Assembly (NCBI RefSeq): GCF_011516945.1
Contig: NZ_WOTH01000033.1
Coordinates: 1 to 32,505, forward strand
Origin: Acetobacter estunensis
Lineage (GTDB): Bacteria; Pseudomonadota; Alphaproteobacteria; Acetobacterales; Acetobacteraceae
Direction: 5' to 3'
Length of the DNA stretch: 32,505 nucleotides
The notes under the pieces were generated by a model. It ran no database searches, had not been told where the DNA came from, and was given only the letters and a program-made list of their open reading frames with translations. Both the position numbers and the translations under genes were made by a program. Shown in pieces: positions 1,983 to 31,395 of the stretch (its first letter is position 1; every line of letters begins with the position of its first letter).

Positions 1983-4223
1983 ATGACTGCCACCCTGCCA
2001 CCCCTTGCCGAGATCGCTGTCCCCGCCCCCCGTCCGGACGAAACCTACACGCTCCGTCTGATGGACCGTGATTTCACCTTCCACGGTCTAAAACGCCTGC
2101 TTGCAGCCGCAGATATCTCCAAAACCGGTGATCGCGTGGCCACTCTCACCGCGGCTGACGAGATGGAGCGTGAAGCCGCCCGCGCCATCCTTTCGGACCT
2201 GACGGTGCGACATCTGTATGATCGTCCCCTGACCACCCAAGATGGCCGCGTGGACGCCGTCATGCGCGTGAATTACGACATCGACTACGTGGCTTTCGAC
2301 GCCATCGCGGATATGACGCTTGGCGCCCTCAAGGATCACCTGCTTCGCACACCAACCGCGGAGGTCCGGCGACTTGGGCGCGGTCTGACAGGTGTGATGG
2401 CCGCTGCCCTTGCCAAGCTGATGGACGTGCATGAGTTGATCCTCGTGGCGCGCAAGGCCAAGCGTTCGGCCAAAGCCCGCACGCTTGTGGGCCAGACCGG
2501 CACCCTCTCTTCCCGCCTCCAGCCCAATCATCCGACGGACGATCTCTCCTGCGTCTCAGCACTGGTTTATACCGGGCTGTCCATGGGTTCGGGCGATGCT
2601 CTTCTGGGCATCAATCCCGCCATCGATACGATCGAAAATGTCTCCGCCCTGCTCACCCATCTTGACCGTTTGCGGCGCGAGACGGAGGTGCCGACACAGA
2701 TCTGCGTCCTCGCGCACGTCAAGACACAGATGGCCTGCCTGAAGGCGGGCGCACCTGTAGAGATCATGTTCCAAAGCCTCGCCGGCACCGAGCGCACATT
2801 GACGGATGAGTTTGATGTGACCGTGGATGTGCTCGACGATGCCTACCGGCTGATGAAGGAGAAAGGACCGCTGCGCGATGTCGCGCGGCAGTTCATGTAT
2901 TTCGAAACAGGTCAGGGCAGTGAACTGACTTACGCCAAGCACGAAGGCATGGACATGACCACGTGCGAGGCCCTTTGTTATGGGCTGGCACGCCGCTACG
3001 ACCCGTTCATGGTCAATAACGTCACCGGGTTTATCGGTCCTGAAACCCATCGCAGTGATTTCGAGATGATCGTCTCGAACCTTCAGGATCATTTCATGGG
3101 CAAGCTGATGGGACTGCCGATGGGCATGGCCCCCTGCTACACCCTGCATTCCGAAATCTCCATGGAAGGCCATCAGATTGCAACAGAACTGCTGGCGGCA
3201 GCAGGCGCAAACTACTTTATGGATGTGTTCCTGACAGTGGACCGGATGCTGGCCTATTTCGACACCTCCGGTCATGACGATCAGACCCTGCGCGAGATCC
3301 ACAACGCCCAACCCGCGCCGGAATACCTGCAATGGGCACTCGCACGCGGCATCTTCACTCAGGACGAAACAGGCGAGATCACACGTGGACCGAACTGGGG
3401 CAATCCGCGTCTCTTCGTATCCTCGAAAGAGGAATTGCTCACACTCCTTGAGCGTGTTCCCGCAGCCTACGGACTGGACTCCGCAGGCCCACGCCCCAGC
3501 AACAGCGTCTCACGACAGGTACGCGCCAATCTCGCCATCGGGCGACAGGCCATTCAGGCGGAGCTCGATGGAAAGCGCCTGCCCGGGCTGTCTTTTCGCA
3601 ATCTGCGCACGCGCGCGCCCGATAAGGAAACCCATCTCGGCCACCCCGACACGGGGGCGGCGCTGGCCGAAGACAGCACCAACGCGCTCACGCCCGAAGG
3701 CATGGATGTGCAGATCATCGTGTCGGACGGACTGAGTGCCGAGGCCGTTCATTACAACGTGCCCGACCTTCTTCCCGTGCTCATGGACGGATTGCAGGCA
3801 CATGGCCTGAGCATCGGCCAGCCCATCCTCCTGCCACATGGGCGCGTGAAAGTGGCTGAAGAGATCGGCGACAGATTGATGCCGCACCTCATCATCAGCC
3901 TTATCGGCGAACGACCGGGCGGGGATGCCAACGCCTCACGCAGCCTGTCCGCCTATTTCGCCTACCGTCTGGACGATGAAGATGTGCGACAGGACGCCGC
4001 GATCTTCAGTGGCAATACCAATATCCGTTATGAATACTCAGTTGTTTCCAACATTCATGCTGGTGGCCTGCCACCGATCGAAGCGGGCAGCGTGATCGTG
4101 GACAAAGCCGTGCGCATCCTGAACGCCCGTGCGGCAGGGAACCGTCTGGAAACGATGCCTTCTTCCCCACATGCGCCTTTCGAACTGCATGACAAGACCG
4201 ACGTCGGAATGACGATTAACTGA
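1983..4223 (+). CDS. eutBC: ethanolamine ammonia-lyase, EutB-EutC single-chain fusion
   Basis: This 746-residue chain joins both subunits of the adenosylcobalamin enzyme that converts ethanolamine to acetaldehyde and ammonia. Residues 1 to about 478 match the large subunit EutB: LVYTGLSMGSGDALLGINP, VLAHVKTQM, YFETGQGSE, YDPFMVNNVTGFIGPE and DHFMGKL are family signatures. After a linker, residues from about 511 match the small subunit EutC: DVQIIVSDGLSAEAVHYN, GRVKVAEEIGD, ISLIGERPGG and SNIHAGGLPPIEAG. E. coli EutB plus EutC together are about the same length, although this EutC part is the shorter contribution. The ATG at 1983 has a GAGAGGA ribosome site; an in-frame TTG at 1965 overlaps the eutA stop and is less likely. 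There is no stop or frameshift in the linker. The 3' end overlaps the convergent gene by 8 bases. Confidence 0.92.
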   Translation: MTATLPPLAEIAVPAPRPDETYTLRLMDRDFTFHGLKRLLAAADISKTGDRVATLTAADEMEREAARAILSDLTVRHLYDRPLTTQDGRVDAVMRVNYDIDYVAFDAIADMTLGALKDHLLRTPTAEVRRLGRGLTGVMAAALAKLMDVHELILVARKAKRSAKARTLVGQTGTLSSRLQPNHPTDDLSCVSALVYTGLSMGSGDALLGINPAIDTIENVSALLTHLDRLRRETEVPTQICVLAHVKTQMACLKAGAPVEIMFQSLAGTERTLTDEFDVTVDVLDDAYRLMKEKGPLRDVARQFMYFETGQGSELTYAKHEGMDMTTCEALCYGLARRYDPFMVNNVTGFIGPETHRSDFEMIVSNLQDHFMGKLMGLPMGMAPCYTLHSEISMEGHQIATELLAAAGANYFMDVFLTVDRMLAYFDTSGHDDQTLREIHNAQPAPEYLQWALARGIFTQDETGEITRGPNWGNPRLFVSSKEELLTLLERVPAAYGLDSAGPRPSNSVSRQVRANLAIGRQAIQAELDGKRLPGLSFRNLRTRAPDKETHLGHPDTGAALAEDSTNALTPEGMDVQIIVSDGLSAEAVHYNVPDLLPVLMDGLQAHGLSIGQPILLPHGRVKVAEEIGDRLMPHLIISLIGERPGGDANASRSLSAYFAYRLDDEDVRQDAAIFSGNTNIRYEYSVVSNIHAGGLPPIEAGSVIVDKAVRILNARAAGNRLETMPSSPHAPFELHDKTDVGMTIN

Positions 4224-20765: not shown

Positions 20766-22568
20766 TCACCGCTCCGTCATGTAATACCGCCAGCCACCCG
20801 TCTCGGTAATGTCCGTGCCACTGCGAGCCACGGCTTCGCTACAGAGGAACCCGCAGACTTCCTTTCCATCCGCCAAGGTAATCCGTCCAATGGACATCGG
20901 TTGCAGAACGGAGGCGACAAAACGTCCGAAGCCTGCGGCATCCAGTTCATAGACCTCCACTTCCAACCCTTCTCCCACAAAACCTCGCTCGCGTACCAGT
21001 CCGGGCTTGGGTGGCGTCGCATTGGGCAGCGCAAAAAGCCGGTAGTCCGGTGCGGTGCGTGTAGTGGCTCTTAGGACAGCGTGCTCCTGCTCAAGCTGCC
21101 AATGCAGGGGAAATCCTTTCAGATGAGCCCCAACCACAGCCAGAAGCACGCGCTCACTGGATGGGATCTCCTCCGCTTTTTCCCCCATGGGGCGATCCGT
21201 GCGCGCGGCCCCAACGGCTTCACCCAAAGCTTCGTGAAAACGTCCAGCCAGTGCCGCCAGATCCTCATCCGTAAAAGCCGGAGCCACGAATGTCACACCG
21301 AAAGGAAGGCCATCTGGCGCAAAGCCAGCAGGAACAGCGCAGGCCGCCATATCGAGCAGATTCACGAAATTCGTGTATGCCCCGAGCAGACTATTGGCCG
21401 CAATGGGCCGATCAATGACTTCCTGTTTCGTGACGATACGCGGCGCGGTCGGCAGCAGCATGACGTCAAAATCAGCCCACATACGCTGTGCCACTTGCTG
21501 AAAACCATGCTGACGATAGATCCCCTCAAAGACATCTGTGGCGGTATATTTTTCAGCATCGTCAATGATGGTGCCAACGGTGGGATCCATATCCTTTCGA
21601 TGTGTGCGATGAAACTCCTTTATGGCCGCAAGCCGTTCGACGACGAAAGGTCCACTATAGAGCAGCGCTGCCGTATTCTTGAGAGGCGCAAAATCCAGTT
21701 CGACAGGTGTGCCCCCAAGCTGTTCAAGCAGACGGATGGCCCGGGCGTAGAGGACGGCATTTCCCTCATTACCATCGAAAAAGCGATCTTCTTTCCGCAG
21801 AATCCCGAAACGAAATGTCGTGAGCGGCAAAGGACGCGAACACAGCGCACGTGAATAAGGTGCCCGCTCGTCTGGCGCTCCCGCAATCCGCTCCACTTTC
21901 CACGCATCGGACGTAGAACCCGCAAAAACCGATATACAATCAAGAGATTCACAAGCGGGGACGAGTCCATACGTGCTGAGAATACCGCGTGACGGTTTGA
22001 GTCCGACGATGTTGTTGAACGCCGCCGGAACCCGTCCCGAACCCGCTGTATCCGTTCCAAGCGCAAACGACACCAATCCGGCCGCAACAGCCACAGCCGA
22101 ACCGGAACTTGAACCACCCGAAACATACTCAGGACTAAACACGGAATGCGGTTGACCATAAGGCGAGCGCATCCCGACAAGACCGGTCGCAAACTGATCA
22201 AGATTGGTCTTGCCGATGACAATGGCTCCGGCAGCTTCCAGACGCTGCACAACCTCAGCACTTTCACTGGGCTCATAAGCGAACGCAGGACAGGCTGCCG
22301 TTGTCGGCAGACCTGCAACGTCAATATTGTCTTTCACTGCAAACGGAATGCCATAAAGCGGCAGATCGGCAGCAGGCTGTCCCTCCAGTTCGACTGCACG
22401 AGCGAGAAGGCGTTCTGTCGGAACACGACTGATCCAGACGGCGGGATCTTTGACGGCATAAGCATTGATGCGCGCAACAACTTCACGCACGATATCTGTC
22501 GGCGTAAGTGTTTCGGCACGACAGGCGGAAAGAAGGGATTCTATCTGCAACATGTTTGGCAGGTTCAT
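20766..22568 (-). CDS. atzF: allophanate hydrolase
   Basis: This 600-residue amidase-signature enzyme hydrolyses allophanate to ammonia and CO2, the last step of this pathway. The Ser-cisSer-Lys triad is visible: Lys79 in GIPFAVKDNID, Ser153 in the GGSSSGSAVAVAAG loop and Ser177 in GTDTAGSGRVPAAF. A second, C-terminal domain (about 470-600) is present, as in full-length allophanate hydrolases. The ATG at 22568 has AGGAAAA upstream; an in-frame ATG at 22604 has no ribosome site. It follows the carboxylase stop by 42 bases on the same strand and is the last gene of the operon. No strong terminator was seen downstream. Confidence 0.93.
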   Translation of the reverse strand: MNLPNMLQIESLLSACRAETLTPTDIVREVVARINAYAVKDPAVWISRVPTERLLARAVELEGQPAADLPLYGIPFAVKDNIDVAGLPTTAACPAFAYEPSESAEVVQRLEAAGAIVIGKTNLDQFATGLVGMRSPYGQPHSVFSPEYVSGGSSSGSAVAVAAGLVSFALGTDTAGSGRVPAAFNNIVGLKPSRGILSTYGLVPACESLDCISVFAGSTSDAWKVERIAGAPDERAPYSRALCSRPLPLTTFRFGILRKEDRFFDGNEGNAVLYARAIRLLEQLGGTPVELDFAPLKNTAALLYSGPFVVERLAAIKEFHRTHRKDMDPTVGTIIDDAEKYTATDVFEGIYRQHGFQQVAQRMWADFDVMLLPTAPRIVTKQEVIDRPIAANSLLGAYTNFVNLLDMAACAVPAGFAPDGLPFGVTFVAPAFTDEDLAALAGRFHEALGEAVGAARTDRPMGEKAEEIPSSERVLLAVVGAHLKGFPLHWQLEQEHAVLRATTRTAPDYRLFALPNATPPKPGLVRERGFVGEGLEVEVYELDAAGFGRFVASVLQPMSIGRITLADGKEVCGFLCSEAVARSGTDITETGGWRYYMTER

Positions 22569-22610
22569 GATGTTTTCCTGTTCTCTCAGCCCAGATCCAC
22601 TCATAGAAAG

Positions 22611-25600
22611 TCAGTTTGTGCGGACAACCATGATTCGTTCGCCGCCCCGCACTTCTCGCCCCTTACGACAGAGAATCTCGGTCACGACGCCGGTTGCTGG
22701 CGAGACGATTTTCATCTCCGTCTTCATGGACTCGATGATTGCAACCGTGTCCCCCACCTTCACATGATCGCCCACGTTTACGGGAAGCTGCCACACGCTG
22801 CCGGGCACCGGACTGTCCACACCCATATGCCCTTCAGGAAGGATAGACTCATCGGCCTGATTGTCGTTCGTTTCTTCCTCGAAGGTATCGAGCCCCTTCG
22901 CAATCCAGTCCTGTCGTTCCGCCTCGAAGGCCGCCTGCTGACGGGCGCGAGCCGCGGCGATCTCCTCCTTGTTAGCTTCAAGGAAAGCGCGATAATGGCG
23001 CAGACTGAACTGCGTCTTCTCGATCTTTACGGAAAAACGGCCATATGGGAACGCCGCGCGGGCCTCCATCAGTTCATCATGCGAGACAGGATAGAAACGG
23101 ATCTGATCGAAAAATCTCAGTAGCCACGGCTTACCTTCGTGAAACACATCGGTCGTTCGCCATGTATTCCAGACCTGTGTGGTGCGGCCGAAAAGCTGGT
23201 AACCGCCCGGCCCTTCCATGCCATAGATGCACATATAGCTACCGCCAATGCCCACCACATTGTCCGGCGTCCATGTACGAGCCGGATTGTACTTGGTCGT
23301 CACAAGACGATGACGCGGATCGATCGGCGTGGCGACAGGAGCACCAAGATAGACATCCCCCAACCCCATCACGAGATAAGAGGCGTTAAAGATGATCTCC
23401 TTGACCGCCTCGATGGAAGGCAATCCATTAATACGCCGGATGAACTCGATGTTGGAGGGACACCACGGCGCATTGGGCCGCACGAGTTCCTGATAACGCT
23501 GCATGGCCAGTCGCGCCTGCTCATCATCCCATGAGACAGGCAAATGCACGATGCGACTTGGCACCACGATATCGTCATCGCCCGAAGGAAGCGCTTGTTC
23601 GATGGTGTGCAAAACTTCCAGAAGCGAGGACAGCGAGATGACATCGGGGTTATAGTGAATCTGCAACGAGCGGATACCGGGTGTCAGATCGATGATCCCT
23701 TTCACCGCCTCGGTTTTCAGGCGTTCCAGCACCAGTTGGGCGCGCAGACGCAACGTAACGTCAAGTTCCGGCGGCCCAAATTCAAGCAACAGATAGTTCT
23801 CACCCGCGCGACGATACACAACCGGAATCTCGCCTTCGGAACGAAGCAGAATGGGACTGTCACCCTCAATCGGCGTGGATAGGAAAGCGACACTCACCGG
23901 TTGCGGCTGCACTCGGCGAAAACGCACCTTGTCGCCCGGATGGAGTTGCCCAATCTTCCACAACTCATCGCGCGTGAGCACGGCGGGGCAGACAAAGCCA
24001 CCCAGGCTCGGACCATCGGGGCCGAGCAGGATGGGCATATCACCGGTAAAGTCGATTGCGCCGATGGCATAGGCGTTATCGTGAATGTTCGAAGGATGCA
24101 GCCCTGCCTCACCACCATCCGTACGGGCCCAGCGGGGCTTGGGTCCGATCAGCCGGACCCCTGTGCGCGCACTGTTGAAATGAACTTCGTATTCGCTGGA
24201 AAACAGTTCCGCGATGTCCTCGTCGCGAAAGAAATCCGGTGCGCCATGAGGGCCGTACAGCACGCCCAGCTCCCATGTGCGTGTCAGTTCCGGACGATCT
24301 TCCTGCGGAATGGTGGTGACTGGCAGAGCGTCGGCCTGAGGTACCGCAAGCCGCAGAACGTCTCCCGTGCGAAGCTGACCGGTCGCATGACCGCCGAACT
24401 GACCGAGCATGAACGTAGCGCGCGATCCAAGATAAAGCGGCGCATCAATGCCACCACGAATGGCCAGATAAGTGCGGTGTCCCGCACCTTTGATCTGCCC
24501 GAAAGCCAGAACCTGACCGGCAAGAACTTCAATCGGCTCCCAGTAAGGTAGCTCTCGGCCATCCAGTGTAGCGGGCATGAATGCCCCCACCAGACCAATG
24601 GTAGCTGGTGCATTAAAACGCAGAACCGGCCCGGAAACCGTAAACTCCAAGGCAGCTACACCGTCTGCATTGCCCACAATGCGATTGGCCAGTCGAAAGT
24701 TGCGATCGTCCATCGGTCCGCTGGGCGGAACACCCACGTCCCAATATCCGATACGGCCCGGCCAATCCTGCACGGTGGATTGCAGACCCGGAGCAATGAC
24801 TTCGATTGTTGTCGGCATGTAAGAAAAACTGTTGAGCAGACCGGTGAAAACCTGCCCCTCAAGCACGGCGGGAGCAGCGGTGATGGTGCGCAGATAATCG
24901 AGATTACTTTCCAGGCCACCGATACGGGTGACTGAGAGCGTCTCGTTAAGTTTACGAAATGCTTCCTCGCGTGTGGCGCCACGCGCAATGACCTTGGCCA
25001 GCATTGGATCGTAATAAGGCGTAATTTCCGTTCCGGTCTCAATCCATCCGTCCACACGCACATCCTGTGCGAAATGTACCTCTGTCAAACGGCCTGTTGA
25101 CGGACGGAAGTTCTCTGCTGGATTCTCGGCATATACGCGGGCCTCCACCGCCGCACCCTGCGGAATAAGGCTGTCCTGCGATGGCAGGATCAAACTGCCA
25201 TCGGCCTGACGCACCATCCATTCCACCAGATCGATCCCGAACACCTCTTCCGTGACGCAATGCTCGACCTGAAGGCGCGTATTCACCTCAAGGAAATAGA
25301 ACTCCCCGCTTTCGGTATCGTAGATGAACTCCACTGTGCCTACGGATTCATACGCAACAGCAGCGCAGAGAGCGCGGGCAGCTTCACGCAATCCTTTGCG
25401 CGTCGCATCCGACAAACCAGGTGCCGGCGTTTCCTCAATGACCTTCTGGTTACGGCGCTGAAGCGAACAGTCGCGCTCACCCAGTGTGAGAATATTCCCC
25501 TTCCCGTCTCCAAAGATCTGCACTTCGACATGGCGTGCAAAAGCTATAAATTTCTCCAGAAAGACGCGAGCGTCACCAAAATTGTTGCCTCCCATGCGCG

Positions 25601-26150
25601 AGACGGCTGCGAAACAGTCACGCAGTTCAGCCTCATTATGACAGACCTGCATGCCGATGCCACCACCGCCTGCCGTGCTCTTGAGCATGACGGGATACCC
25701 GATGCGCCCGGCCTCAGTTACGGCTTCATCCGCCGTGCCGAGAATATCGGAACCCGGCAAAAGCGGCACGTTGTTCTGGCTGGCCAGTTCGCGTGCCGTG
25801 TGCTTGAGGCCGAACGCGCGCATATGCTCCGGGCGCGGCCCCATGAAACGAATACCGCGCTCAGCCAGTTTTTCGGCAAATTCCGCGCGCTCGCTCAGAA
25901 AACCATAACCGGGATGGACTGCCTGCGCCCCCGTGCTGGCACAGGCATCCAGAATGGCGTCCATGTTCAGATAACTGTCCGTCACCGCAGACGGCCCGAT
26001 CAGCACAGCGTCATCAGCTTCCAAAACGGGAGGCGTGAAGCGATCGGCTTCCGAGCACACCGCAACGGATGCGATGTTCATGCGCCGAAGCGTGCGGCTG
26101 ACACGCCGGACGATTTCTCCACGATTGGCGATGAGAACCTTAGTGAACAT
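22611..26150 (-). CDS. urea/guanidine carboxylase (biotin-dependent)
   Basis: This 1179-residue single-chain enzyme has a biotin carboxylase domain at about 1-450 ([36 protein letters not shown]). The carboxyltransferase region of the KipA/KipI (DUF183-like) type follows, with [28 protein letters not shown] in one half and [15 protein letters not shown] in the other. A C-terminal biotinyl domain carries ESMKTEM with biotinylated Lys1143. Enzymes of this design carboxylate urea to allophanate or guanidine to carboxyguanidine using ATP and bicarbonate. The adjacent DUF1989 gene pair points to guanidine as the main substrate; this is inferred from context, not read from the active site. The start has GGAAG upstream. 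No urease genes are present. Confidence 0.92.
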   Translation of the reverse strand: [1179 protein letters not shown]

Positions 26151-26168
26151 GGCGGATCTTCCGGTATG

Positions 26169-26813
26169 TCAGATGGTAGCGGGATCACCGATGACCACGC
26201 GGATTGGCGTGGGCGTGAAACCGTTGCAGGGATTGTTGACCTGTGGGCAATTCGACAGCACCACGAGCGTGTCCATTTCCGCGCGCAGATCGACGAAACC
26301 ACCGGGAGCGGAAAGACCGTCATCAATCACAAGTTCGCCATTCTGCATGATGGGAACATTCATGAAGAAATTGACGTTGTTGACGATATCACGCTTGCTC
26401 ATACCGTATTTTCCCACTTCCAGAAGGAAGTTTTCACGACAGGCATGCATGTATTTCGTCTCATGACCGAAACGTACGGTATTAGATTCACAACTGCACG
26501 CTCCTGCCAGCGTGTCATGTCGCCCGCAGGTATCTTCAACAACGGTCATGAGGACGTTGCCCTCGTTGGAAAACAGACGCCCACCCTTGCCGATATAGGC
26601 AGCCCCCTGATTCACCAGCGTATCCTGCGCACTGTACCGTTCATGATAGGCATGAGCGTTGTAGAACAGGGCGTCCACCGCCTGCTGGCTTTCAAGATCG
26701 ATAATGCGCAGCACCTGTCCCTTGCGGACCACTCCTGACCACGGCACACGAGCCGCTACGACCTGATCGAGAGTGATGGTCGAGAAAACCTTACTGATGT
26801 CATATTCTGGCAT
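26169..26813 (-). CDS. DUF1989 protein, UAAP2-type carboxyguanidine deiminase subunit
   Basis: This 214-residue DUF1989 protein is one of the two urea-carboxylase-associated proteins now known to form carboxyguanidine deiminase (CgdAB), which turns carboxyguanidine into allophanate and ammonia. The motif EDTCGRHDTLAGACSC gives Cys96, His99, Cys106 and Cys108. VDLRAEMDTLVVLSNCPQ matches the family core. Compared with its neighbour it keeps the full set of Cys/His residues, so it is the likelier catalytic subunit. The ATG at 26813 gives the family-like start MPEYDI; upstream in-frame ATGs fall inside the previous gene. It starts 16 bases after the neighbouring stop and ends 18 bases before the carboxylase. 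Confidence 0.88.
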   Translation of the reverse strand: MPEYDISKVFSTITLDQVVAARVPWSGVVRKGQVLRIIDLESQQAVDALFYNAHAYHERYSAQDTLVNQGAAYIGKGGRLFSNEGNVLMTVVEDTCGRHDTLAGACSCESNTVRFGHETKYMHACRENFLLEVGKYGMSKRDIVNNVNFFMNVPIMQNGELVIDDGLSAPGGFVDLRAEMDTLVVLSNCPQVNNPCNGFTPTPIRVVIGDPATI

Positions 26814-26829
26814 GGATCTGGCTTTCGGA

Positions 26830-27633
26830 TCAGACAAAAAGAGGATCGGTGTTTTCGAAACCGCGACGGGCTTCCTCACAAAACGTCCGGCACAGATCAT
26901 CCGGCTTGAAGGGAGGCGCCTGCCAGCGCACGGCATCGATCGGACCGGGCTCGAACGTTTTTTCCGGCGCCAAAGGATGCGGACAGTTCGAGACAGCAAC
27001 GAGAAGATTCATCTCCGCGCGCAGATCGACATGATCACCCGCCCGCACATCGCCTTCAATCCAACGGAAACTGCCATCCACCTGCGTGCTGATATGCGAA
27101 AAAAAGCTGATGCAGGAGGTGACATCATGTTGCGCCATGTCGTGCTTGCCCGCGATCAAGCGCAGATTGTTGCGCGTGTTGCGGAGACCGGCATTGCCAA
27201 AGTTCCGTGCGTTGCTCTGGGGTGTACTCCCCCCCACCAGCGTATCGCTGAATCCGCAGGAATCACCAATGATGGAGGCCAGCACACGTCCCATGTCCGA
27301 GAACAGAACGCGGCCTGTCGTCAGGCAGGTGGTCCATTGCAGCTTGATGGTGTCGCCCGCGTTGTACCGCTCACTGTGATCGTCTGCATTCCAGAGTGCG
27401 ACAGACACACCCTTATTGCCAGACGTGTTAATCAGGCGAAGAGCCTGTCCACGCGGCAGGATCGTGCTCCAGTACCACCCCCCCGGAATGGTTTCGCGAT
27501 GGAGAACGCGACTTTCCGTCATCTCAATGGGTGTAAAGGCTGGACGTGCGCTGCTCTCGGCAAGAAGCGCCTGATCGCGAAGCTGGTTGTAGCGGGCGCG
27601 ATACCACTCGGGAGTCTGTTGGTCGATCTGCAT
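26830..27633 (-). CDS. DUF1989 protein, UAAP1-type carboxyguanidine deiminase subunit
   Basis: This 267-residue DUF1989 protein is the longer partner of the pair, with an N-terminal extension of about 45 residues (MQIDQQTPEWYRARYNQLR). The family core is present: ALRLINTSGNKGVSVALWNADDHSERYN, GRVLFSDMGRVLASIIGDSCG and HVDLRAEMNLLVAVSNCP. At the position where the partner has CGRHDTLAGAC, this one has CGFSDTLVGGS, so a His and a Cys are replaced (Ser129, Gly135). It may therefore be a non-catalytic or differently acting subunit. It is 41 bases after the NikR-like gene and first of the enzyme block. Which cgd letter it carries I cannot say. Confidence 0.87.
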   Translation of the reverse strand: MQIDQQTPEWYRARYNQLRDQALLAESSARPAFTPIEMTESRVLHRETIPGGWYWSTILPRGQALRLINTSGNKGVSVALWNADDHSERYNAGDTIKLQWTTCLTTGRVLFSDMGRVLASIIGDSCGFSDTLVGGSTPQSNARNFGNAGLRNTRNNLRLIAGKHDMAQHDVTSCISFFSHISTQVDGSFRWIEGDVRAGDHVDLRAEMNLLVAVSNCPHPLAPEKTFEPGPIDAVRWQAPPFKPDDLCRTFCEEARRGFENTDPLFV

Positions 27634-27674
27634 GGAACGCTCCTATATTACGGAGTAATTTGAAAACACATTTG

Positions 27675-28154
27675 TCAGCACGGGGTCATGTCGAGGGCAG
27701 GCGCACGCCCCTTCTCATGGACAGGCGGAATCAGGGACGCGATGAGATGAAGTTTTCCCGAAATGACGCCGGACTGCGTCATGAACTGGTCTGCGATTTC
27801 CTGAAGTTTTCTCACCTTTCCCTGCACGAGAAGAACTTCAAGCGTCTGACGACGCACAAGGTTGACGTGCAGGGAACTGATAACCTCAGCCAGATTCTCG
27901 TATTGCAGTTCAGCGAGTTTCTGGGAAAGTCCGGTTGCGGCGTTGTTATAGAAGAGAATGATGACACCCGCCATCAGCTCATCCGCGCTGTCTTTACGCG
28001 ACGCCATGAGCTCCTGATGCAGGATATTCTGGATGGCCTGCGAACGGCTGGCATAGCCCTTCTCCGCCACCATGGCGTCCAGTTCATGCAGGATTCCCGG
28101 CGGCAGCGAAATGCTGACACGGCTGACCTGTTCTTTTGTTTCCCGACTGCTCAT
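27675..28154 (-). CDS. NikR-like ribbon-helix-helix regulator lacking nickel ligands
   Basis: This 159-residue protein has an N-terminal ribbon-helix-helix DNA-binding domain (RVSISLPPGILHELDAMVAEKGYASRSQAI, residues 12-41) and a C-terminal ACT-like domain (about 60-140) matching NikR, including SSLHVNLVRRQTLEVLLVQG. Aligned by eye with E. coli NikR, the four nickel ligands His76, His87, His89 and Cys95 correspond here to Tyr85, His96, Asn98 and Thr104, so only one is kept. It probably senses something other than nickel, for example guanidine, another small molecule or an energy or nitrogen signal. It sits inside the operon between the ABC ATPase and the DUF1989 genes. The ATG at 28154 follows AGGA. 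Confidence 0.82.
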   Translation of the reverse strand: MSSRETKEQVSRVSISLPPGILHELDAMVAEKGYASRSQAIQNILHQELMASRKDSADELMAGVIILFYNNAATGLSQKLAELQYENLAEVISSLHVNLVRRQTLEVLLVQGKVRKLQEIADQFMTQSGVISGKLHLIASLIPPVHEKGRAPALDMTPC

Positions 28155-28165
28155 CACTGCGCGTC

Positions 28166-29080
28166 CTACTCCGCCTTGTCTGTCACGAGGGTGAGGAGCG
28201 GAATGTCGAAATCCTCCCCTCCTTCATTCGTTTCCTCGGTGGTATCACCAAAGGATCGGATGAGCGCCTCCAGATGGGCCTTTGTCGCGAGAAATTCGTC
28301 CGAGGCCATCTGCGCCGCCCTACGTGGGCGTGAAAGCGGCACCTCGATCACCTCCTCCACCCGACCGGGACGGGGCTTGAGCACAAGGATCCGGTCCGCC
28401 AGATAAATGGCCTCGTCCAGATCGTGCGTGATGAAAACAATGGTGATGTCGATCTTGCGCCAGATCTCCATCAGATAGTTCTGCATCTTCAGCCGTGTCT
28501 GAGCATCCAGAGCGCTGAAAGATTCATCCATCAACAGCACGCGGGGGCGTGCCGCCAACGCACGGGCAATGGCCACACGCTGTTGCATCCCGCCTGAAAG
28601 CTGATGCGGGAAAGACGTGGCGAACTGCTCCAACCCCACCAGCTGAAGCCATTGCATGGCCTGACGTCGCGCTTCCACGCGATCCGTGCCGCCCATTTCG
28701 ATGCCGAACATCACGTTGCGGCAAACATCCAGCCATGGAAACAGCGTATATTTCTGAAACACCATGCCACGATCGGGACCGGGGCCATTCACCGGTTTTC
28801 CATCCACGAGAATGCGGCCTGTGGTAGCATCCTCCAGTCCGGCAAGGATACGGATCAAGGTCGATTTGCCACAACCCGAAGGACCGACAACACAGACGAA
28901 TTCGCGCCGGTGAACGCCGAACTCGATATCTTCAAGCGCTACGGTCTTATTGCGCTTCTGGGCAAAGACTTTTCCAACATGATCGATTTCCATCACACAT
29001 TCGCGCTGCCTGATCTGCGCCATGCGTTCGGCGACATCTGGCGGCAACACGCGATAGTCAGGGAGACAATGTTCAGTCAT
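28166..29080 (-). CDS. ABC transporter ATP-binding protein (NitT/TauT-type)
   Basis: This 304-residue ATPase has Walker A GPSGCGKST (66-74), Q-loop Gln109 in GMVFQKYTLFPW, signature LSGGMQQRVAIARAL (161-175), Walker B VLLMDES (181-187) and switch His219. The NtrD/SsuB/TauB relationship is clear. It has about 29 extra N-terminal residues and a C-terminal extension that is acidic. Its start overlaps the permease stop by 4 bases (ATGA), so translation is coupled. With the binding protein and permease it should import the substrate of the enzyme block, guanidine or urea; this is inferred from the operon. Confidence 0.9.
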   Translation of the reverse strand: MTEHCLPDYRVLPPDVAERMAQIRQRECVMEIDHVGKVFAQKRNKTVALEDIEFGVHRREFVCVVGPSGCGKSTLIRILAGLEDATTGRILVDGKPVNGPGPDRGMVFQKYTLFPWLDVCRNVMFGIEMGGTDRVEARRQAMQWLQLVGLEQFATSFPHQLSGGMQQRVAIARALAARPRVLLMDESFSALDAQTRLKMQNYLMEIWRKIDITIVFITHDLDEAIYLADRILVLKPRPGRVEEVIEVPLSRPRRAAQMASDEFLATKAHLEALIRSFGDTTEETNEGGEDFDIPLLTLVTDKAE

Positions 29081-30042
29081 CCGTCACTCTCCCTTTTCCA
29101 TGTGAACAGTCTGCGCGCCAGCAAACCAAGCACCATGTCCGTGCCCAACCCGACAATGCCGATCAGGACCATGGCGGCATACACATTGTCGAAATGCTGG
29201 TAACGTGCCTGCTGGGTGATGAACCAGGTGATACCCGAAGACGTGCCGATCAGTTCCGCCACGATCAGATATGTCCATGCCCAGCCAAGAAGAATACGCT
29301 GATCGCGGTAAAGATCGGGCAGAATGCCCGGTATCACCACACGAAAGAGCAGTTTCAAGCCCTTCGCACCGAGCGTGCGAGACGCTTCGATCAGCGCGAA
29401 ATCCAGCTTGCGGGTGGTGTTGGCAATGACCAGTATCTGCTGAAACAGCGTGCCGATAACGATGATGGCGATCTTGGGCGCATCATAGATACCAAGAATG
29501 GCCACTGCGAGCGCACCGAAGGCGGGGGCCGGCAGATAACGGAAAAAATCCACCGACGGCTCAACAAGACGCGCCACGGCAGGCAAAGCGCCACACAGCA
29601 CTCCGAGTGGCACACCGATCAGTGAAGAGATGACGAACCCCCAGAAAATGATCTGGATGCTGTGCCCAAAGGCTTGCGTGATGGAGTGCTCCGCACCCGT
29701 CGGAGCCGAGGACGTGAAGGCGCGACCAAAGGCCGTCAGCACCTCACCCGGAGAAGGAAGATAGACGGGATTTGTCGCAACCCCCTGTGGAACAGGCAGG
29801 TTTTTTGTCCGCATCTCGCCCACGGCACGACTGAAATCTGCACGATTCATCCGCATGCCGGATTCGAGATAATCTTCGCCGCCGGGATCGGTAATGAGCA
29901 CCTGTGGATGCCACACGAAAGGCAAGTAACTCACAGCACTCCATGCGAGTAAAGGCAGGAGCACCGCCAGAACACCGAATACGCCACGCGCTGTCCGGTC
30001 GGTCCGACCATACAATCTCCAGGAGGCGGAAAAGCCCTGCAT
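29077..30042 (-). CDS. ABC transporter permease (NitT/TauT-type)
   Basis: This 321-residue permease has a first membrane helix at about 21-41 and a long extracytoplasmic loop (about 45-118). The BPD_transp_1 core follows, with helices near 128-150, 172-188, 192-208, 255-270 and 285-305. The EAA motif EASRTLGAKGLKLLFRVVIPGILP lies at about 219-242. The 70-residue loop after the first helix is longer than in simple SsuC/TauC permeases and is seen in some urea/guanidine-associated systems. It overlaps the ATPase by 4 bases and starts 20 bases after the binding-protein stop. Confidence 0.88.
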   Translation of the reverse strand: MQGFSASWRLYGRTDRTARGVFGVLAVLLPLLAWSAVSYLPFVWHPQVLITDPGGEDYLESGMRMNRADFSRAVGEMRTKNLPVPQGVATNPVYLPSPGEVLTAFGRAFTSSAPTGAEHSITQAFGHSIQIIFWGFVISSLIGVPLGVLCGALPAVARLVEPSVDFFRYLPAPAFGALAVAILGIYDAPKIAIIVIGTLFQQILVIANTTRKLDFALIEASRTLGAKGLKLLFRVVIPGILPDLYRDQRILLGWAWTYLIVAELIGTSSGITWFITQQARYQHFDNVYAAMVLIGIVGLGTDMVLGLLARRLFTWKRESDG

Positions 30043-30062
30043 GGCGGTCTCCTGCCTCAGTC

Positions 30063-31046
30063 TTATTTCGCAGATTCTACGAAAGACGGGTCGATGTAAC
30101 TATCCACATTTTGCGAAATCTTATAGACACCATAACGAACATTGAAGGAGTCGGAGACGGCTGTGGAACCATAGAGCGAATCCAGACCGTCCTTCTTTGT
30201 GAAAACCGCCTTATCATCCGCAATCGTCAACAGATGTGTCCCCTTAAGAAAACGCTTGTAAGCATCAGGAGCGATACCCGTTCGGGCCGCCATGATACGC
30301 AAGGCATCGGGCTGTGTCTTCGGATCGTTGATGTAGGCCACGACATGATCCCATACACCGACCAGTCGCTGCCACTGATCCCGATTGTCATGCAGGGACT
30401 GTGGATCCACGACAATCGTGTCGTAGATCAGACCGGGCGCCTCGTGTGACGTGAACACCGGACGCGCGCCGGGCACCATATGCAGGGCCTGCCCGGCATT
30501 GGGCTGCCAAGCCGCCACAGCCGCGACCTCGCCTGAAGCGAGAACCTGCGGTGTTTCATTGGTCTTGGTGTTGACCAGTTTCACATCTTTCTCGCTCATA
30601 CCGGCTTTTTCCAGACCCGTGAGCAGAAGGAGATGATCGACCAGGCCCTCTTCCACCGCGATCGATTTACCCCTGAGGCCCTGCATGTCAGTGATTCCCG
30701 GCTGGGCCACCACCATGTCGTTACCGTCGGAATAGTCGGTGACGAGGATCATCTCGCCTTTATGACCGTTCGCGCCCGTCACCAGAGCGTCGCCATTCGT
30801 GGCCATGACGGCATCCAGCTTGTGCGCGGAGAACGCATCGAGCGAAGCGCTGTAATCGAACCACTGAAAATCGGCATCCACGCCAGCATCTTTCAGCCAC
30901 CCCTTATCGATGGCCACCTGCCATGCCACCCAGCCCGGCCAGTCGCTGTAACCGATCTTCAATGTCGCGGCGGACGCTGAGGCGAGAGTCGCAACAGCGC
31001 AGACGCCAGCAAACAGGACTTTGCGAAGAGACGAGAGCAGGCGCAT
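30063..31046 (-). CDS. ABC transporter periplasmic substrate-binding protein
   Basis: This 327-residue protein has a signal peptide (MRLLSSLRKVLFAGVCAVAT, cleaved near ASA-A at 26/27). The mature fold is of the NMT1/SsuA/TauA type: LKIGYSDWPGWVAWQVAIDKGW, DAFSAHKLDAVMATNGDAL, LRGKSIAVEEG and AAWQPNAGQAL. Tryptophans near the start (DWPGW) and acidic residues suggest a small cationic or polar ligand, in line with guanidine, but I cannot read specificity. GGAG lies 8 bases before the ATG. It is the first gene of the operon, and a perfect inverted repeat lies 11 bases upstream of its start codon. Confidence 0.89.
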   Translation of the reverse strand: MRLLSSLRKVLFAGVCAVATLASASAATLKIGYSDWPGWVAWQVAIDKGWLKDAGVDADFQWFDYSASLDAFSAHKLDAVMATNGDALVTGANGHKGEMILVTDYSDGNDMVVAQPGITDMQGLRGKSIAVEEGLVDHLLLLTGLEKAGMSEKDVKLVNTKTNETPQVLASGEVAAVAAWQPNAGQALHMVPGARPVFTSHEAPGLIYDTIVVDPQSLHDNRDQWQRLVGVWDHVVAYINDPKTQPDALRIMAARTGIAPDAYKRFLKGTHLLTIADDKAVFTKKDGLDSLYGSTAVSDSFNVRYGVYKISQNVDSYIDPSFVESAK

Positions 31047-31057
31047 GGACAGACTCC

Positions 31058-31087
31058 AGTAATACGAATAAGGAAAATCGTATTACT
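31058..31087 (-). promoter_or_regulatory. candidate operator, GTAATA-N16-TATTAC
   Basis: AGTAATACGA and TCGTATTACT are exact inverted copies separated by 10 bases, ending 11 bases upstream of the binding-protein ATG. Read as outer half-sites this is GTAATA-N16-TATTAC, the same 6-16-6 spacing as the E. coli NikR box GTATGA-N16-TCATAC. The NikR-like protein of this operon is the obvious candidate binder. Confidence 0.7.
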
Positions 31088-31088
31088 C

Positions 31089-31117
31089 ATTCTCCGGTGG
31101 AATCCCGATCATTGCAA
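31089..31117 (-). promoter_or_regulatory. candidate sigma-70 promoter of the ABC/guanidine operon
   Basis: On the minus strand TTGCAA (31112-31117) and GAGAAT (31089-31094) are 17 bases apart; each matches four of six consensus bases. The predicted transcription start falls inside the inverted repeat at 31058-31087, so a protein bound there would block initiation. Confidence 0.4.
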
Positions 31118-31225: not shown

Positions 31226-31256
31226 AATGCACATGACAGTCGTGGTCATGTGCATT
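31226..31256 (-). terminator. 12-base-pair hairpin, probable terminator of the PAP2 gene
   Basis: AATGCACATGAC pairs exactly with GTCATGTGCATT across a 7-base loop. On the minus strand the stem runs into TTTTCTCATT, a weak U-tract. It is about 140 bases past the PAP2 stop. Confidence 0.5.
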
Positions 31257-31395
31257 GGACTCGGTGTGGACTGTCGATAATTTGCTATACTTAAATCAAT
31301 ATGGCTTTCGCTTGAGGGCAACGCAAACACCTACAAGCTTGATAGACGATGCCATGCGGTGAAAAAACTATCATCAGCGGATTGAGAAACGTCCC

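Follow-up and report, generated by a model that had tools for sequence, protein, structure and literature searches.

The window analysed in this study comprises 32,505 nucleotides and is contig 33 (NZ_WOTH01000033.1) of the 3.45 Mb genome of Acetobacter estunensis. Eight genes between positions 20766 and 31046, all on the minus strand and all belonging to the expected families, form a predicted operon for the utilization of guanidine (Table 1). In order they encode the substrate-binding protein (SBP), the permease and the ATPase of an ATP-binding cassette (ABC) transporter, a NikR-like regulator of the ribbon-helix-helix (RHH) type, the DUF1989 proteins UAAP1 and UAAP2, a biotin-dependent carboxylase and an allophanate hydrolase. 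Neighbouring genes overlap by at most 4 bp and are otherwise no more than 41 bp apart. A preliminary description of this DNA had claimed this gene order on a single strand with short gaps and an RHH protein inside the operon; gene coordinates and family matches bear out both. It had also proposed that the RHH protein replaces a riboswitch. The subject here is this regulator, which has lost most of the nickel site of NikR, and the operator predicted for it in front of the first gene.

Table 1. Features of the guanidine operon and its leader in the A. estunensis window.
Feature	Position	Strand	Basis or remark
ABC transporter SBP, NMT1/SsuA type, first gene	30063..31046	-	TIGR03427 below cut-off
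ABC transporter permease	29077..30042	-	family match
ABC transporter ATPase	28166..29080	-	family match
NikR-like RHH regulator, degenerate nickel site (Y86 H97 N99 T105 versus H H H C)	27675..28157	-	PF08753, 1.8e-20
UAAP1 (DUF1989), carboxyguanidine deiminase subunit	26830..27633	-	TIGR03425 above cut-off
UAAP2 (DUF1989), carboxyguanidine deiminase subunit	26169..~26813, start codon inferred	-	TIGR03424 above cut-off
Biotin-dependent guanidine carboxylase (family name: urea carboxylase), D700 and D932	22611..26150	-	TIGR02712, 1798 bits
Allophanate hydrolase	20766..22604	-	TIGR02713 above cut-off
Predicted operator, perfect inverted repeat AGTAATACGA-N10-TCGTATTACT, core TAWTAC-N14-GTAWTA	31058..31087	-	ends 11 bp before SBP start codon
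Weak putative promoter TTGCAA-17-GAGAAT adjoining operator	31089..31117	-	by eye; 8/12 consensus positions, below scanner threshold; partly conserved
12-bp perfect inverted repeat, terminator-like, probably ends upstream PAP2 gene	31226..31256	-	repeat search and terminator score

The regulator consists of an RHH domain (PF01402) and a NikR_C domain (PF08753). It matched the solved NikR 2bj1 with 82.7 bits and passed two NCBIfam NikR cut-offs (105.9 versus 105 bits and 84 versus 83 bits). According to the available part of PMC7055735 the nickel ligands of NikR are His76, His87, His89 and Cys95. In the window regulator these square-planar ligand positions correspond to Tyr86, His97, Asn99 and Thr105, i.e. 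three of the four ligands are lost. The complete His-His-His-Cys (HHHC) set was present neither in the query nor in any of the 120 homologues listed, out of 783. The 22 operon-borne regulators had no His at position 86, no Cys at position 105 and, in all but one case, no His at position 99, while 22 of the 24 canonical NikRs carried all four ligands. NikR-like proteins located outside guanidine operons in a sample of Acetobacteraceae possessed HHHC in 21 of the 23 aligned cases and HQQR in two. A tree of 71 rows separated the canonical from the ligand-less proteins with a support of 100/100; L038 and L039 (fetched loci carry L numbers, genomes G numbers) were left out of the alignment, the tree and the residue table. 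Residues kept in the ligand-less but not in the canonical proteins include S15, S17, Q40, E91, S94, Q104 and Q112. The label nickel-responsive regulator NikR, which one source gives to a close relative (P0001), is probably wrong.

The modelled C-terminal domain of the regulator resembled the nickel-bound NikR domains 1q5y and 2y3y (TMt 0.88–0.96, root-mean-square deviation 0.9–1.4 Å), in a model with a pLDDT of 74.7, a pTM of 0.59, a full-chain TM of about 0.5 and an N-terminus of low confidence. No other NikR_C protein was found in the genome. The regulator relatives detected in genome contigs, 11 in number, all came from Acetobacter.

Directly before the first gene lies a perfect inverted repeat, which can also be written GTAATAC-N14-GTATTAC and matches the E. 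coli NikR operator in geometry. The preliminary description did not mention this repeat at 31058–31087. The motif GTAATACGA-N10-TCGTATTAC with up to three mismatches occurred once in the window versus 0.01 expected occurrences, and when the leader was shuffled 5000 times with its dinucleotides preserved, a perfect 9+10+9 repeat appeared 11 times. In the whole genome GTAATA-N16-TATTAC was found exactly at this single position. When one mismatch was allowed one further place appeared, compared to eight for the backwards control pattern, and therefore only the exact form of the operator stands out. Ten of 11 other Acetobacter loci carry the operator without any mismatch in front of the first operon gene, and the eleventh carries it with three arm mismatches. 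At L011 and L012, where the SBP gene lies downstream, it was located before the permease gene. A footprint in 13 leaders revealed conserved arms and a less conserved spacer.

The leader had been described as free of a riboswitch, and a covariance-model search of this region agreed. No Rfam family reached its gathering score anywhere in the window, the six matches between 30500 and 31700 at E ≤ 10 included no riboswitch, and the guanidine-I riboswitch (RF00442) was absent from the whole genome. Rfam detected no guanidine class in the other Acetobacter loci either, of which seven out of 11 were scanned (all but L002, L004, L007 and L008). Farther upstream in the leader, a weak match to the small RNA Atu_C9 at 31226–31314 stayed below threshold (21.8 bits versus a gathering score of 40, E 0.0024). 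The inverted repeat at 31226–31256 was set aside as an operator candidate on account of its terminator score and its position upstream of the leader stretch that aligned across relatives.

The enzymes of the operon point to guanidine as the substrate. In the available parts of the sources a guanidine carboxylase is recognized by Asp at both positions 1330 and 1584 of the K. lactis enzyme (PMC11410670), and the distinction of Asp versus Asn is also made in PMC12186494. Asp700 of the window carboxylase aligned to Asn1330 of yeast urea amidolyase 5i8i. Asp932, within a GLGD motif, was assigned to position 1584 by hand on the same alignment. Aspartate thus occupies both positions, and both DUF1989 deiminase subunits and the allophanate hydrolase are present. 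These two diagnostic residues support the route from guanidine via carboxyguanidine and allophanate to ammonia that had been suggested before. The operon as a whole would import a guanidino compound and degrade guanidine along this route. Since the genome also contains a urease alpha gene, a second route for urea exists.

The distribution of the regulator was compared with that of the guanidine-I riboswitch. Among 200 genomes of Acetobacteraceae, 12 contained a full-length carboxylase over the cut-off; eight of these had guanidine-I only, three had the regulator only and one had neither. One of the eight, G187, carries a canonical HHHC NikR elsewhere. A ninth guanidine-I genome of this sample, G065, had no carboxylase over the cut-off. 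Among 398 genomes of Pseudomonadota, 41 contained the deiminase marker UAAP2 over its cut-off, and all 41 fetched loci encoded a D700-type carboxylase. Guanidine-I without the regulator was found at 34 of them and the regulator without guanidine-I at seven; no locus had both and none had neither. The 34 riboswitches all lay 0.96–6.4 kb from UAAP2, in a search limited to class I of the guanidine classes I to IV. The earlier statement that such operons are usually under ykkC control agrees with this ratio. G879 was excluded from the 41, as its deiminase-like match did not reach the cut-off and its surroundings yielded no carboxylase. Also rejected, as a case of a NikR beside a carboxylase, was G094: its NikR is of the HHHC type and divergent from an apparent nickel transporter gene (by eye), and its carboxylase fragment is urea-type with Asn at position 700 (L082:3321-4946).

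In a midpoint-rooted tree of 57 carboxylases, built with FastTree as the one, quick method, the 14 carboxylases accompanied by the regulator fell into three separate clades. The carboxylase of G479 was nested among riboswitch-bearing ones, and support was low for grouping the Acetobacter clade next to the other clades.

The core TAWTAC-N14-GTAWTA of the predicted operator recurred at regulator loci of Acetobacter, Sphingomonadaceae, Caulobacteraceae and Acinetobacter. It was located before the SBP gene, the regulator gene or both in G712, G893, G861, G441 and G897, and with one mismatch in G479. Among the fetched loci the core was exact in 7 of 9 regulator loci versus 2 of 42 others; with up to one mismatch these numbers were 8 of 9 and 5 of 42. 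Genome-wide, eight regulator genomes held 13 exact core sites, 12 of them at the operon, and one site of the backwards pattern. The 43 other genomes held 39 exact sites versus 42 backwards ones, and two of the 39 lay in fetched operon loci. T3, A4, T6, A7 and C8 as well as G23, T24, A25, T27 and A28 were invariant in 20 chosen operators; these had been selected for matching the core, and the invariance describes the set rather than testing it.

Further operator-like sites lie near guanidine operons. Exact operators stand before fatty-acid-hydroxylase/sterol-desaturase genes at L126:17932 and L179:18449-18556 (gene identified by Pfam in L126 and by annotation in L179), with metallo-beta-lactamase-fold genes near the L126 site. 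Another exact operator near a guanidine operon is at L102:17990, where the following gene was not scanned. At L120:18520-19735 two operator-like sites, one exact and one with a mismatch, separate the SBP gene from a divergent 2-oxoglutarate (2OG)-Fe(II) oxygenase gene, an arrangement that recalls, by analogy, methylguanidine demethylation operons.

The same gene set together with the regulator was found on plasmids. Of 34 plasmid records six were opened, and in four of these the residues at the ligand positions were determined. The operon with the regulator is carried by plasmids of Asticcacaulis excentricus, two Novosphingobium and Sphingobium sp. TomTYG65. Exact operators are present on the Asticcacaulis and both Novosphingobium plasmids, the three of these four that were scanned. 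On the plasmid of Acinetobacter sp. NCu2D-2 the regulator gene precedes the allophanate hydrolase and SBP genes and has an exact operator before it. A second exact operator stands before a cluster of permease, ATPase, 2OG oxygenase, hypothetical and small multidrug resistance (SMR) transporter genes. A NikR-annotated gene on a Methylomagnum plasmid, another of the six, is surrounded by TonB-receptor genes and is not part of a guanidine operon.

Several observations weigh against the proposed guanidine-responsive control by the regulator, or against a simple replacement of the riboswitch by it. On the Acinetobacter plasmid a guanidine-I riboswitch precedes UAAP1, UAAP2 and the carboxylase despite the presence of the regulator, and in G479 the regulator is accompanied by a guanidine-II riboswitch in front of UAAP1. 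The operon of G053 (Acetobacteraceae) has neither control: besides guanidine-type carboxylase and deiminase genes (L081:4097-9167), no importer match, regulator or Rfam riboswitch was found in the fetched stretch. A ninth regulator genome, G169, lacks the operator at its damaged operon, was entered as a miss in the table of local sites, and has one exact site elsewhere. In G910 guanidine-I is located at a separate carboxylase operon and the ligand-less relative elsewhere in the genome. The mutual exclusion at the 41 loci gave a Fisher p value of 4.4e-8, ignoring relatedness, and this value is inflated by relatedness, since four families account for the regulator loci in the phylum sample. The carboxylase tree is silent on which control came first. 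Within the protein, His97 is retained in all 22 operon-borne regulators and position 86 is freely variable. The promoter scanner, moreover, reported no sigma-70 promoter in the leader; since it did not report the weak candidate TTGCAA-17-GAGAAT, repression by promoter overlap is something that we infer. What stands of the proposed replacement is the presence of the regulator at every phylum-sample locus without guanidine-I (7/7) and at none with it (0/34), together with a conserved NikR-type operator. It is not strict, as the Acinetobacter plasmid, G479 and G053 demonstrate.

Two of these loci deserve a further remark. On the Acinetobacter plasmid an operator-like site with two mismatches (position 3761) lies immediately upstream of the guanidine-I riboswitch before UAAP1 (L181:3613-3724), and both controls may be stacked on one promoter there. 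The operon of G169, which belongs to the same genus as the window, seems to be decaying: its carboxylase gene is interrupted by about 1 kb, its SBP is shortened (L085:4470-13491), and allophanate hydrolase gave no match in the fetched stretch.

The most serious alternative is that the regulator reads another signal of the pathway or of the nitrogen status, such as carboxyguanidine, allophanate, urea, ammonia, glutamine or the substrate of a creatininase/glutamine-synthetase pair, rather than guanidine itself. A search of the 398 genomes with the regulator profile gave 49 places, for which 30 loci were returned and 28 aligned (L169 and L170 were not aligned); the fetched loci L174-L176 were left out of the context analysis. 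Nine of the 28 NikR-like proteins were ligand-less and 19 HHHC. Seven of the nine are encoded in guanidine operons. The remaining two, from G902 and G910, are encoded next to genes for a creatininase and a type III glutamine synthetase, with no carboxylase there; this favours another signal and counts against guanidine as the general ligand. G902 has the same importer type and an exact operator that ends 17 bp before the predicted first gene, and in G910 the pair is divergent from the regulator relative, with an E. coli-type site GTATGA-N16-TCATAC in between. Therefore the clade may sense a wider range of guanidino compounds, or a different one in those members. In the same direction point the creatininase/glutamine-synthetase pair within the G479 locus and a glutamine synthetase-like gene near the operon of A. 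peroxydans (L012). On the other hand, the enzymes encoded are those also found at guanidine-I loci, and on the Acinetobacter plasmid an exact operator precedes the 2OG-oxygenase/SMR cluster while a guanidine riboswitch precedes the other part of the pathway. This division offers the best, if indirect, evidence from sequence that both controls read the same molecule. We regard such another signal as unlikely. The pair, a gene of the creatininase family with a type III glutamine synthetase gene after it, recurs beside ligand-less NikR relatives at L172:7307-10056, L173:9804-12579 and L134:5687-7833. It occurs with or without the guanidine carboxylase and might represent another route for a guanidino compound.

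Far less probable is a regulator that still responds to metal and switches the operon with the nickel supply, for example to replace urease. The passed NikR cut-offs, the retained histidine and the urease alpha gene speak for it. Against it stand the loss of three of four ligands, the fully supported separation from canonical NikRs and a carboxylase of the guanidine type, not of the urea type. Moreover, the position that we take to be equivalent to Glu30 of the potassium site, in presumed E. coli numbering, is occupied by Gln in 48 of the 50 ligand-less rows, compared to Glu in 24 of 24 canonical ones. That the operon has no specific protein regulator and the complementary pattern merely reflects inheritance in a few lineages, as the four families of the phylum sample might suggest, is hardly credible with the regulator in three separate carboxylase clades, operator arms conserved next to a variable spacer, and both controls found within Acetobacteraceae.

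We therefore return to the NikR-derived regulator as a guanidine sensor. Vinegar-type bacteria and several unrelated ones appear to control their guanidine-use genes by a NikR-derived protein without the nickel site. Control of the window operon by the regulator through the predicted operator is very likely on present sequence evidence. We further consider it likely that in this lineage the protein replaces the riboswitch. DNA binding, repression and guanidine as the ligand are properties that we infer. The NikR-like protein would be the dedicated repressor of the operon and, as a tetramer, would bind TAWTAC-N14-GTAWTA overlapping the putative transcription start. Its ACT-like domain, having lost the nickel site, would bind guanidine or a close guanidino compound and thereby release the DNA. 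Such a ligand is probable, and so is the mode of action as a repressor that leaves DNA upon ligand binding. In the window lineage the protein would do the job that the guanidine-I riboswitch performs in most relatives.

For the ligand-less clade as a whole we lean, with more reserve, towards a family of transcription factors that sense guanidine. It would be the first one known, would have replaced guanidine riboswitches in three or more lineages, and in some loci (the Acinetobacter plasmid and G479) would act on one pathway together with a riboswitch for the same molecule. Neither a guanidine-sensing transcription factor nor a NikR-like protein in guanidine operons appeared among the literature matches listed, which were drawn mostly from non-subscription literature. 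The clade represents a concrete candidate guanidine sensor with a defined operator, and the question is thus directly testable. If the proposal is true, an RNA sensor and a protein sensor have been exchanged repeatedly on one pathway, and a metal-sensing ACT-like pocket has been turned into a sensor of an organic cation.

Three known systems are closest to the one described here. Like the NikR proteins of E. coli, Helicobacter and Pyrococcus, the window regulator combines an RHH with a NikR_C ACT-like domain, and the model of its C-terminal domain fits the nickel-bound NikR structures. The E. coli NikR site is given as GTATGA-N16-TCATAC in the available part of PMC7055735; the predicted operator GTAATA-N16-TATTAC is likewise a 28-bp palindrome with two 6-bp ends around N16. 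The half-sites differ, however (GTATGA versus GTAATA, TAWTAC in the core), H76 and C95 are replaced in all 22 operon-borne regulators and H89 in all but one, and the window regulator is located in a guanidine operon. Guanidine carboxylase operons under the guanidine-I (ykkC) riboswitch share the enzyme set with the window operon, but possess an RNA aptamer instead of a predicted DNA-binding protein with its operator. The Vreelandella guanidine/methylguanidine operon has guanidine-I and guanidine-II riboswitches according to the available part of PMC12508155, which mentions no NikR-like protein; in that part it shares the carboxylase pathway, the ABC importer and a 2OG oxygenase with the regulator-bearing systems, among which the Acinetobacter plasmid and G861 invite comparison.

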